From a virus: a stretch of 58,430 nucleotides of DNA. The stretch's first letter is position 1. Each line of letters begins with the position of its first letter. The position numbers were made by a program, and so were the translations under genes. Location: the IMG/VR virus record IMGVR_UViG_3300027862_000004, positions 1 through 58,430 of that record; one strand, 5' to 3'. Positions 38,765 to 43,027 of the stretch are shown here, piece after piece. The notes below the pieces were generated by a model, which saw only the letters and a program-made list of their open reading frames with translations, was not told the DNA's origin and searched no databases.

Positions 38765-40441
38765 ATGTCCTTACTCGACCTGCGGTCGTTAGAGACGAAC
38801 TATTTTCTGACGGCTGCGGTTGGTTCCTTCCTCAAAGCGAGTCCTTCCTCCAATCTGCTGAAGGGTAGTTATCTCTCTGCTTCTGTGGGGTCGTTTGTTG
38901 AAGTCGGCAACGCGACGACTCTGCTTAAAACCAATATTCTTGTCTCTTCTGTTGGTAGTTTCCTCGAAGTTGGCAATGCTGCACCGTTACTCGAAGGGCA
39001 CCGTCTCACGTCGGCAGTCGGGAGTTTTGTCGAGACAGGGATAGCTGCGTCGTTGTTAGAAGGCCATCTCCTGACGGCGGCTGTTGGGAGTTTTGTTGAG
39101 ACTGGAAATGCCGCGCCACTATTGGAAGGCCATCGACTGACGGCAGCTGTTGGGAGCTTTGTTGAATCTGGTCTAGCAATCACTCTCCTCAAGACAAGCA
39201 TTCTGGCTTCTTCTGTTGGGTCATTTGTTGAGACTGGCAACATCGCGAATCTCAATAAGGGCTACTACCTCTCTGCCACGACAGGATCATTCACAGAAAC
39301 TGGCCTCGCGATTGTCCTCACTAAAACGAGCATTCTTGTATCGGCTGTTGGAAATTTTGTAGAGACCGGTGCGAGTGCTCCGTTACTCGAAGGCCATCTG
39401 CTTACGGCGGCGACTGGTGCGTACACGGAGACAGGCAGTGCCGCGTCACTTCTGACTGGCTACGTGCTGTCGAGCGTTGCTGGCACTCTCATAGAGACTG
39501 GTTCTGCTGCATCGCTCCTTGAAGGCCATCGTCTGGTTGCAGCGACAGGAACCTACATCGAGACTGGTGTTGATACCGCGTTCCTGCGGGGCTACGCGTT
39601 AACGTGTGCAGCAGGTGCTTTTGTAGAAGTAGGAAATGTCGCAGCACTACTTGAAGGCCATCTCCTCTCAGCGGCACTCGGTGTGTATGTCGAGAGTGGG
39701 AGTGCGGCTGGTTTGTTCGAAGGCGAGGGCCTGTTTGGGTTGGTTGGGAATTTCATTGAAACAGGGATTGCTGTTTCGCTCCGTGCTGATCGTGACCTGA
39801 TTGGACTTTCTGCTGCGTATGTCGAGACTGGTGCGGATGCTTCTCTGTTAACTGGTTATTCTCTCTCTGCTACTGGGGCGATTTTCAACGAGATTGGTAT
39901 CGATGCTTCGCTACTGTTCGATCGGGTACTCTCTGCAGCCGTTGGAAATTTTGTTGAGTTAGGACAGGATGCGTTCCTCGGTGCGTTCCGCATTCTGAAT
40001 GCTGAGCGTGGAATCTTTGTCGAAGTTGGGCAGGGCGCACAGTTTAAACAGACGGTTGTGCAGGCGGTTGGTGGAAGACGAGCACGACGAGAACGAAAGA
40101 AACCGCTTGCCGCGCAGTATACGCTGACTGCACAGAGCGGAACGTTCTTCTCGCAAGGGTATTCCATTTCTCTCACGAGATCCTTGGTTCTACGCGCTGG
40201 ATTGTCTAGCGTAGATGTCGCTGAGATCTCTTCGGGTGTGTTCAGGACCGCTTTTAGACTTCGCGGTACTGGAACTGAGTTTAATGCTGTTCCGCACGCG
40301 GCGGATCTCTCACGATGTGCATACCTTGCGTGTCAGAGTGGTGAGTTCAGTGTGGTCAATCTACCGAGTGTGTTGATGAAGACTGACATCGATCTGTTTC
40401 TTGATGATGATGAGTGGCTGTTCTTACAGGAGGCGGCGTAA
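38765..40441 (+). CDS. Repeat-array virion protein
   Basis: A 558-aa protein. After a short start, about residues 36-431 are 18 successive units of 22 residues with the pattern LxAAxGxFxETGxAAxLLxGH. Such units are typical of phage surface proteins and probably form an extended beta solenoid. The final 120 residues are non-repetitive and contain a basic patch (GGRRARRERKK) and an acidic end (LFLDDDEWLFLQE). It lies between the head-region virion proteins and the minor head gene, so it is most likely a fibre or decoration. Confidence 0.8.
   Translation: MSLLDLRSLETNYFLTAAVGSFLKASPSSNLLKGSYLSASVGSFVEVGNATTLLKTNILVSSVGSFLEVGNAAPLLEGHRLTSAVGSFVETGIAASLLEGHLLTAAVGSFVETGNAAPLLEGHRLTAAVGSFVESGLAITLLKTSILASSVGSFVETGNIANLNKGYYLSATTGSFTETGLAIVLTKTSILVSAVGNFVETGASAPLLEGHLLTAATGAYTETGSAASLLTGYVLSSVAGTLIETGSAASLLEGHRLVAATGTYIETGVDTAFLRGYALTCAAGAFVEVGNVAALLEGHLLSAALGVYVESGSAAGLFEGEGLFGLVGNFIETGIAVSLRADRDLIGLSAAYVETGADASLLTGYSLSATGAIFNEIGIDASLLFDRVLSAAVGNFVELGQDAFLGAFRILNAERGIFVEVGQGAQFKQTVVQAVGGRRARRERKKPLAAQYTLTAQSGTFFSQGYSISLTRSLVLRAGLSSVDVAEISSGVFRTAFRLRGTGTEFNAVPHAADLSRCAYLACQSGEFSVVNLPSVLMKTDIDLFLDDDEWLFLQEAA
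38870..40057 (+). repeat. Eighteen 66-bp coding repeats
   Basis: Period is 22 codons. Units diverge in sequence but keep G-S-F-V-E-T-G and LLEGH anchors; a few alternate units (LLKTS, LNKGY) show a second type. The two unit types suggest duplication of unit pairs. Confidence 0.8.
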
Positions 40442-42115
40442 GTGCCTTCTTTTCCGCTCCAATCAGCAGCCGCAGCGAGAATCCTCGAGCGGCTGGTCAG
40501 ACGCAGAATCAGAAATGAGGTGTCACATCGCACTGCTGTGTCGCGGGAGAATGAGCTCCACACTGTCGCGGAGGAGTTCTTTCCAAAGTTTCGCGCTGTT
40601 GTTCGAGCGGCCTTTGCACGAGGACGTTTTGCGGTGGATCATGCTGCACTTCGCAAAGCCACCACGATACATGACGCGCAGGTGGCGATATCTCCTGCTG
40701 CGTTTGCGACACAACGATACTTACAGCGTGAGTTGCCGAAGTTGTTGCTCAACCTGGTGAAAGCTGGCGGGAACGCTGGGTTGAAACGGCTCGGCTCAGT
40801 GCGCGGCCTTCGTGCTGCGGCTGATGATGATCTCTACTCGATGCGATTCGATGTGACGAATCCCGATGTTCTTGAATGGATCAAGGAGCACACAGCCGAA
40901 CTCATAGATGGGATTACAGAAACAACTCGACAGAATATTACCGATGCGATTGTGGCAGCGTTTGAAAGTGGGACTTTGCGTGAAGCCTATGATGACATTC
41001 TTGAATTGGTTGGAGACGAAAGCCGCGCCGAGTTGATCACTCGCACTGAGTGCATGATGGCAGCGAATGAGGGGCAACGCGAATCGTGGTCGCAAGCCGA
41101 AGAGGCGGGTCTGCTGACGGGGGATGAGAAACGAGTCTGGATCGCGACGGATGACGCTTGTCCTAAATGTGAAGAATTAGACGGACAGGAAGCGGATCTC
41201 GATGGAGTGTATCTCGGTGATGGTGAAAATGGTCCGCCCCTCCATCCGAACTCAATTGTCGCTGGTGTTTTGGTTGAGGGTAACACGATTGCGGCCACAC
41301 GGATGTTATATGCGGGACAAGTCAGGGAAATCGTAATGATCAGCGGTCGAACGTTGACCATCACACCGCACCACTCGGTAGCAACCCTTCGAGGATTCAT
41401 TCCTGCTCACGATGTCGAGAAAGGCGAGTATTTGTTCTCTTACAATGAGCGGATCGAACGTAGTGACCCATCTGCCGAGTCCTTTTATCCTGCGGTGTCT
41501 GTTTTCTTTTCTCCACAAGAGAATCAGGACGGACCAACCACTATCGAGCAGGTCTTTCATTCGTTGAAACTCACTGGGAAACTTGTCGTTGCCGAGCGGT
41601 TTGGCGACGAGTTCCACGGCGACGCGGCGTATGGGAATGGCGATATCGACATTGTATATGCCGATGTCGAATTGGGGAATCGCGTCGAGGCCACAGTTGA
41701 GGATCAGCGCGAGGGTCTCGTGCTCGAATCCTCCGACCTTCTTGTTTCTGGATTGCGCAACGCGCTCCTTGTGCAACTGGCTGCTCGATTGACCAAGCCT
41801 GCCAGCGTTATAGGCTTGCGGCCCGTCACGCAGCCAACGAAGACGTCCCGCATCGGATATACCGCGTATCTCGATGCCGTGCTGTTCGAAATGGCTCGTC
41901 ATTTTAACGCGAGAGATGCCAGCTTCTGCCGCGAGCTTGTAGAGCGGCTCGCCGGCTTTATAACGCAAGACGAAGTGATCGAAGTTCGGAATCGGGACTA
42001 TTTTGAACATGTCTATGATCTTAACACGATTAGCGGGGTTATTGTCGCGAACGGTTTCATAATTTCGAACTGTCGCTGTACTGAAGGTATCGTGGCCGGA
42101 CCGCCAGAGGACTGA
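40442..42115 (+). CDS. Minor head protein (SPP1 gp7-like) interrupted by an intein
   Basis: A 557-aa precursor from GTG 40442. Host protein residues 1-270 plus 544-557 form the MuF/SPP1 gp7 fold: NITDAIVAAFESGTLREAYD, ELITRTECMMAANEGQRESW, VWIATDDACPKCEELDGQ, and the conserved end HPN-CRCTEGIVAG. Residues 271-543 are an intein inserted exactly between HPN and CRC, a zinc-coordinating motif of the family. After splicing the product would be 284 aa. The family protein sits inside the head near the portal and aids assembly or ejection. The DNA methylase gene follows. Confidence 0.9.
   Translation: MPSFPLQSAAAARILERLVRRRIRNEVSHRTAVSRENELHTVAEEFFPKFRAVVRAAFARGRFAVDHAALRKATTIHDAQVAISPAAFATQRYLQRELPKLLLNLVKAGGNAGLKRLGSVRGLRAAADDDLYSMRFDVTNPDVLEWIKEHTAELIDGITETTRQNITDAIVAAFESGTLREAYDDILELVGDESRAELITRTECMMAANEGQRESWSQAEEAGLLTGDEKRVWIATDDACPKCEELDGQEADLDGVYLGDGENGPPLHPNSIVAGVLVEGNTIAATRMLYAGQVREIVMISGRTLTITPHHSVATLRGFIPAHDVEKGEYLFSYNERIERSDPSAESFYPAVSVFFSPQENQDGPTTIEQVFHSLKLTGKLVVAERFGDEFHGDAAYGNGDIDIVYADVELGNRVEATVEDQREGLVLESSDLLVSGLRNALLVQLAARLTKPASVIGLRPVTQPTKTSRIGYTAYLDAVLFEMARHFNARDASFCRELVERLAGFITQDEVIEVRNRDYFEHVYDLNTISGVIVANGFIISNCRCTEGIVAGPPED
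41252..42070 (+). mobile_element. Intein in the minor head protein (273 aa)
   Basis: First residue Ser271 follows HPN; last residues SN precede Cys544 of CRC. Block A is SIVAGVLVEGNTIAATRMLY. Block B is LTITPHHSVATLRGFIPAHD (with the TxxH motif), and VEKGEYLF follows. Block F/G is HVYDLNTISGVIVANGFIIS then N. The penultimate residue is Ser rather than the common His. The middle on this strand has no recognisable nuclease; the nuclease is coded on the other strand. Ser1, C-terminal Asn and Cys+1 support active splicing. Confidence 0.9.
41306..42010 (-). CDS. Antisense HTH + Vsr-like homing endonuclease inside the intein
   Basis: A 234-aa frame lying wholly within the intein, opposite strand. 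Residues 15-50 form a helix-turn-helix: LRYKAGEPLYKLAAEAGISR then VKMTSHFEQHGIEIRG. A Vsr/PD-(D/E)XK-like core follows: HETLALILNCGLDA, QFDIGIYNVDIAI, RRVAVEL, and MKDLLDSGWSVLILLW. The C-terminus LAFLDIVSRNESS then GCYRVVRCDGQRS matches the tail of the same endonuclease group. Both strands are open without stops. The reading fits an intein-homing endonuclease coded in antisense; expression is unproven, and no strong ribosome site was established. Confidence 0.75.
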   Translation of the reverse strand: MFKIVPIPNFDHFVLRYKAGEPLYKLAAEAGISRVKMTSHFEQHGIEIRGISDAGRLRWLRDGPQAYNAGRLGQSSSQLHKERVAQSRNKKVGGFEHETLALILNCGLDAIPQFDIGIYNVDIAIPIRRVAVELVAKPLGNDKFPSEFQRMKDLLDSGWSVLILLWRKENRHRRIKGLGRWVTTFDPLIVREQILAFLDIVSRNESSKGCYRVVRCDGQRSTADHYDFPDLSRI

Positions 42116-42157: not shown

Positions 42158-43027
42158 ATGTCACTTCTTCGAGCTGACGCACGTGCGATCCCGTTGTGTG
42201 ATGGTTGTGTGCAGACTGTTGTAACGAGTCCTCCGTATTGGGGGCTTAGAGACTATGAACTTGGTGCGGCAGGAATTGGAATGGAGCCGACATTAGAGGT
42301 ATATGTCGCTGCATTGGTTAATGCTTTTCGTGAGATCTGGCGAGTGCTCCGTGATGATGGAACTGTGTGGGTGAATCTCGGTGATTGTTATGCAACTTGT
42401 ATTGACAAAGTTGGCAAGTTGAAGCCTAAAAATTTAGTTGGTCTGCCTTGGCGCGTTGCCCTCGCGTTACAAACTGATGGCTGGTATCTTCGTTCCGACA
42501 TTATTTGGGCGAAACTTACATGTATGCCGGAGCCAGTCACGGATCGGCCGACGAAGAGTCATGAGTATATATTCTTAATGGCGAAGTCTGAACGGTATTA
42601 CTACGATGGCGATGCGATTGCCGAAACAACGACAGAAACAAGTGGCTGGTCGAGACAGCGGATGCGTGGTTTAAACACATGGGAATACAACAATACAGCC
42701 GCGCGAATTGCCGCAACAGGACAGAGAGTTGAATCCAGTACATTTGGTACATTTGGAAAGCGCAACAAGCGCAGTGTTTGGACGATCAATACTGAGTTCA
42801 ACCGTGGCGCGCACTTCGCAGTTTTTCCCGAGGCGCTCGTTGAACCGTGCATTCTCGCTGGCGCTCCGGTTGGCGGCCTCGTGTTCGATCCCTTTATCGG
42901 CTCTGGTACGGTGGGCGCAGTTGCCGAACGTCTCAGTCGTCGATGGGTCGGCATCGACCTGAGTTATCAGGATCTTGCTATTGAGCGTACAGCGCAACGC
43001 GGTTTTATGTTTGATACAGCTGTTTAG
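42158..43027 (+). CDS. Site-specific DNA methyltransferase (beta class)
   Basis: A 289-aa protein. The catalytic motif TSPPYWGLRDYELG comes first (about residues 24-37) and the SAM-binding motif VFDPFIGSGTVGAVAERL last (about 246-263), the beta-class order. TSPPYW is compatible with N4-cytosine or N6-adenine methylation. GTVWVNLGDCY, HEYIFLMAKSERYYYD and RRWVGIDLSYQDLA are further motif blocks. No restriction enzyme gene is adjacent, so it probably guards phage DNA. A degraded copy lies at 18824-19045. Confidence 0.9.
   Translation: MSLLRADARAIPLCDGCVQTVVTSPPYWGLRDYELGAAGIGMEPTLEVYVAALVNAFREIWRVLRDDGTVWVNLGDCYATCIDKVGKLKPKNLVGLPWRVALALQTDGWYLRSDIIWAKLTCMPEPVTDRPTKSHEYIFLMAKSERYYYDGDAIAETTTETSGWSRQRMRGLNTWEYNNTAARIAATGQRVESSTFGTFGKRNKRSVWTINTEFNRGAHFAVFPEALVEPCILAGAPVGGLVFDPFIGSGTVGAVAERLSRRWVGIDLSYQDLAIERTAQRGFMFDTAV

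Follow-up and report, generated by a model that had tools for sequence, protein, structure and literature searches.

A phage intein whose opposite strand carries a codon-aligned gene for a probable homing endonuclease

I-Bth0305I is an intron homing enzyme. In the fractured genes of Dassa et al. (2009), split inteins reportedly carry a free-standing EDxHD nuclease between their two halves. A review of homing enzymes gives the in-frame fusion as the intein case and places I-Bth0305I in the EDxHD/Vsr-like homing enzyme family (PMC3943268), and a review of inteins makes no mention of antisense coding (PMC7765530). Homing endonuclease genes in antisense orientation are on record from nuclear group I introns, namely the Didymium I-DsqI and Dir.S956-2 (PMC9548176). 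Here we analyse a viral record of 58,430 nucleotides (IMGVR_UViG_3300027862_000004; the whole stretch is called the window below), and we hold it highly probable that it contains a mobile intein divided between two DNA strands, with the splicing element on the plus strand and its homing endonuclease on the minus strand. The features concerned are as follows.

40442-42115, plus strand: MuF-like minor head protein precursor (the host gene), 557 aa, with Pfam and PHROG matches
40442-41251 and 42071-42112 (then stop), plus strand: N-extein and C-extein, the parts of the MuF-like gene
41252-42070, plus strand: intein of 273 aa, Ser1 to Asn273, then Cys+1, splitting the host gene at HPN/CRC
41363-41374, plus strand: intein block B, T-P-H-H, residues 38-41, with T38 and H41 invariant
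41612-41623, plus strand: conserved sense motif F-H-G-D, residues 121-124
42005-42022, plus strand: intein block F, E-H-V-Y-D-L, with its His codon CAT opposite the nuclease ATG
42044-42070, plus strand: intein block G, VANGFIISN, then Cys+1, from sequence and alignments
41306-42010, minus strand: antisense homing-endonuclease-like gene, 234 aa, ATG at 42010-42008 and TAA at 41308-41306
41882-41983, minus strand: nuclease helix-turn-helix (HTH), residues 10-43, with model helices 10-18, 23-30 and 34-43 and HTH families in relatives
41516-41731, minus strand: EDxHD/Vsr-like nuclease core, residues 94-165, with E96, D122, E133 and R150 kept

The host gene belongs to a late module that also contains terminase, portal, protease-like and major-head-like genes, and matches Phage_Mu_F at 3.6e-6 (just missing the curated Pfam cut-off) as well as PHROG head proteins with E down to 8.8e-28. 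Between the portal and MuF genes lies a 558-aa protein (38765-40441, plus strand) with repeats of about 30 residues (SAVGSFVETG...) and no PHROG match, and directly 3' of the intein-bearing gene is a DNA methyltransferase (42158-43027, plus strand; PHROG 67, 1.6e-57). Scanning the window for Rfam families and tRNAs gave no matches.

An earlier note on this DNA had placed the intein between HPN and CRC of the minor head protein, and its coordinates proved right. The window shows S1, T38 and H41, block F EHVYDL, N273 and Cys+1 between the flanks HPN and CRC, and the Intein_splicing profile, which matches the window intein at 1.8e-5 (under the curated cut-off), matches 54 of 55 relatives with a best value of 2.5e-14. 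In the structural model the Hint core is predicted with confidence; besides it there are a small subdomain around residues 95-136 and, at 139-220, a stretch predicted to be disordered. Submitted to Foldseek, the model returns inteins, in keeping with a Hint fold. Plus-frame profiling of 55 members gave no match to any nuclease family, and thus no in-frame endonuclease. Residue 1 is Cys in at least 90% of relatives and Ser in the window. Intein-less MuF genes occur, for instance in Arthrobacter phage Salgado, which reads HPGCRC at the site; compared with it the insertion is precise, and the window intein would be expected to splice out of the MuF precursor.

The minus frame that the same note had described as open for 234 codons indeed has no internal stop, and the overlap it had pointed out, with the nuclease tail opposite block B and the N-terminus opposite block F, was found to be in exact codon register. 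Nuclease codons are the exact reverse complements of intein codons, so that the same three base pairs encode nuclease residue k and intein residue 254-k, and the nuclease begins with the ATG that the block F His codon (H253, CAT) spells when read on the other strand. The tail YRVVRCDG (211-218) faces block B (36-43), with block B residues 38-41 opposite V-V-R-C (213-216), which in most relatives is V-I-R-G. Intein FHGD (121-124) lies opposite nuclease V-A-V-E (130-133), both being conserved, and the disordered intein stretch 139-220 shares its bases with the HTH-linker region of the nuclease.

Profile search and structure prediction of the minus-strand protein found the nuclease homology that the earlier note had read from the letters as an HTH plus a Vsr-like enzyme, and whose absence it had named as a refutation. 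A profile of 60 family sequences matched the PDB entries 3hrl (6e-6) and 3r3p, which is I-Bth0305I (4e-4), and Pfam REase_MTES_1575 was found in 43 of the 60 members (best 1.4e-10). Taken alone the window nuclease is a weak match (REase_MTES_1575, E=0.013), and a single-sequence PDB search with it gave no match, the family profile being needed. Its AlphaFold model has a pLDDT of 86.7, with I-Bth0305I as best Foldseek match in the PDB (prob 1.00, target TM 0.71-0.73), and also matches Vsr. A DNA-binding module is indicated by the N-terminal HTH in the model together with the HTH families matched by relatives. Five relatives (L002, L003, L006, L007 and L009) have an extra N-terminal HTH-like nuclease module, and their sense inteins run to about 300-330 aa against about 270. 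The sense-encoded relatives of the nuclease are distant (3r3p, 3hrl and MTES_1575), and among the loci examined we found no free-standing, sense-encoded close relative.

The arrangement is widespread among phages. A tblastn search with the minus-strand protein returned 50 phage records at 22-33% identity, a search with a relative's protein returned 125, 310 viral contigs were confirmed by a pattern scan, and another 16 cases came from genome contigs. The hosts of these phages include Pseudomonas, Salmonella, E. coli, Klebsiella, Gordonia, Rhodococcus and Vibrio, and one copy is on a Chloroflexota plasmid. Across from the nuclease, the codon-aligned register was open in every one of the 95 loci examined, and the other two registers held many stops. 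Most phage records inspected annotate only the capsid gene at the locus, although the antisense ORF does appear, as a hypothetical protein, in that of Salmonella phage PK1. The interrupted genes are mostly MuF and once a fusion of UDG and DNA polymerase A (L082, IMGVR_UViG_3300050821_009689), where a second, different intein lies upstream. The element's place in the MuF gene differs between related phages, being TSTT/C...KN/CRA or HPN/C...HN/CRS (L007, Escherichia phage fEg-Eco06, compared with L008, Snoke, and L145, PK1), and it is fEg-Eco06 that carries it at the second MuF site.

Because a codon-aligned antisense frame mirrors the conservation of the plus strand, similarity of the minus frame is by itself no proof of a gene. 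The intein alone could be real and the minus ORF its accidental mirror, GC-rich antisense frames often being open; the register is in fact the mirror register, chance antisense runs reach 335 codons in some N-exteins, and zero antisense stops in the window by itself gives a P of only about 0.009. Across the family, however, substitutions speak against such an accident. Plus codon position 1 is the wobble base of the minus frame, and in 26 pairs compared (14 of them disjoint) differences at plus positions 1/2/3 were 1812/1493/3057 in the exteins and 2127/887/1514 in the overlap, which favours the minus wobble base; the switch was seen in 14/14 disjoint pairs. The ratio of position 1 to position 3 differences tracks the limits of the nuclease gene along the intein, being 0.25 in block A, 0.65 in block B, 1.0-2.5 over the remaining nuclease, 0.44 in block F and 0.35 in block G. 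These measurements apply to the family and not to the window's own lineage, because the only near match to the window that we found is an identical contig (0 differences in 8705 bases), with no near but non-identical relative.

Stop codons and codon choice tell against an accidental frame as well. From the codon usage of each extein about 331 antisense stops were expected in 61 loci (249 at the mean extein rate) and 0 were seen, figures to be read as descriptive and not as a joint probability, since relatedness links the loci and most of them were recovered by way of the minus frame; a search from the plus strand showed the same picture in the full-length inteins that it recovered. Stops throughout the minus frame of homologous inteins, which the earlier note had named as decisive against its reading, are thus lacking, and the exceptions, L036 and L109, are decay products. 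In block F, His is encoded by CAT in 62 of 66 cases and by CAC in 4 (background 773:827; P 7e-15), CAT giving the minus-strand ATG, and the block F Leu codon is CTC in 40 of 53 (P 2e-15), giving the GAG of the minus-strand ribosome site. In the T-P-N-H codons of block B, ACC is used in 46 of 51 and AAT in 41 of 47, and therefore the minus frame reads V-I-R-G; this codon choice shows that the nuclease tail motif, though it coincides with block B, is selected in the minus frame too. Moreover, copies in Klebsiella phages were recovered by the minus-strand query and missed by the plus-strand query. With the codon-position, stop-avoidance, codon-choice and homology tests in agreement, we reject the accidental mirror for the family and give it next to no chance overall, and the minus frame is almost certainly a selected gene of a nuclease family.

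The converse also has to be weighed, namely that the real gene is the minus-strand nuclease, with the middle of the plus-strand region only a by-product, filler that the intein tolerates. Within the overlap, minus-synonymous changes outnumber plus-synonymous ones (1235 vs 549), and plus residues 139-220 are predicted to be disordered and are largely missing from L036 and L109. These two keep their splicing blocks, the first with an intein of 194 aa and a nonsense codon in the nuclease, the second with an intein of 183 aa and the HTH-linker part of the nuclease deleted. Both, however, retain FHGD, and blocks A, B, F and G together with FHGD are constrained beyond the needs of the minus frame. 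Opposite one Val codon of VAVE the plus frame has only H or Y, and opposite the second only D, and because this is narrower than the D, H, N and Y expected from the minus frame alone, we conclude that the FHGD motif is selected in both frames. As an account of the whole region, then, filler is unlikely though still a serious candidate: it is true for the stretch 139-220 and false for the plus region as a whole. Judging from the codon-position, codon-choice and FHGD patterns across the family, purifying selection acts on both frames, which agrees with the suggestion of the earlier note that both proteins constrain the same bases.

We can speculate a little further on the plus-strand insert. D-F-H-G-D-G is the motif of the intein subdomain near 95-136 and is written over the VAVE of the nuclease. 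It is conceivable, if rather doubtful, that the two strands cooperate, with the DFHGDG subdomain kept in decay forms, the core motif of each protein fixing that of the other, and antisense transcription possibly timing capsid expression against homing. If true, the element would be a two-strand gene pair.

Whether the minus-strand protein is a homing enzyme at all is a separate matter, as it could instead be a DNA-binding regulator or a maturase-like factor, or in the window a dying nuclease. At position 138 the window copy has Pro, against His in 88% of relatives; it also has a shortened linker and a poor ribosome site, and may be impaired because of this Pro for His in the nuclease and of Ser1, not Cys, in the intein; decay forms likewise exist in the family. 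Yet it keeps E96, D122, E133, R150 and other invariant positions, its frame is open at the P given above, its model reaches the pLDDT quoted earlier, and some open-frame relatives, L024 and L034 among them, are likewise without the His. We regard a role other than homing, or the loss of it, as improbable, and consider it likely that the minus-frame protein works as the homing endonuclease of the intein.

The two-strand mobile intein would then work as follows. From the plus strand the intein would excise from the translated precursor, leaving a normal MuF protein. An antisense transcript, with the nuclease start codon (in most relatives the ribosome site too) inside block F and the tail opposite block B, would express the HTH and EDxHD/Vsr-like enzyme, which would cut an intein-less MuF allele near HPN/CRC in another phage infecting the same cell or in a prophage; the repair that follows would carry intein and nuclease over as one. 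Like splicing, expression from the antisense strand, cutting of the empty allele and homing are inferred. Mobility of the element is indirectly supported by the occupied second MuF site and UDG-DNA polymerase A site, the intein-less site and the decay forms. Promoter scans gave no consistent candidate for an antisense promoter. In five relatives (L004, L022, L038, L041 and L042) a TATCAT or similar sequence is conserved some 30 bases upstream of the nuclease ATG, opposite the Met-Ile codons that precede block G; it could belong to an antisense promoter and scored nothing in the consensus scan.

Taken together, these observations point to a new build of mobile intein, in which splicing and homing are placed on opposite strands and not in one polypeptide. 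They bear on sense-antisense coding hypotheses, that is on how one stretch of DNA encodes two folded proteins, and offer an unusually clean system for that question because the families are known, some 230 codons do double duty across hundreds of viral sequences, and decay forms serve as controls. They also show that annotation overlooks such genes. The earlier note knew of no standard precedent, which stands for inteins, where the open-access papers searched describe no antisense homing gene, but not for homing genes in general, since antisense ones are known in group I introns. Both component families are known, and the codon-aligned two-strand arrangement is apparently undescribed in the open-access literature searched.

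Set beside known systems, the element shares with I-Bth0305I (3r3p) the nuclease fold, as both best structural match and profile match, although that is an intron enzyme and the family found here is HTH-fused and antisense to an intein. As is reported for the fractured genes of Dassa et al. 2009, intein and EDxHD-type nuclease are separate proteins, but there the intein is split, whereas here it is contiguous and the nuclease is on its own opposite strand. The antisense homing genes of group I introns have the same orientation within a self-splicing element and are likewise expressed from the opposite strand (PMC9548176); in those introns, however, the homing gene has been inserted into a peripheral segment of the ribozyme, while in this phage intein two proteins share codons. 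Finally, inteins with an in-frame endonuclease (LAGLIDADG or HNH, such as PI-SceI) similarly combine a splicing domain and a homing enzyme in one mobile element within a host gene, but do so as one polypeptide, whereas here the opposite strand encodes the enzyme as a protein of its own, in a gene that overlaps the splicing blocks.
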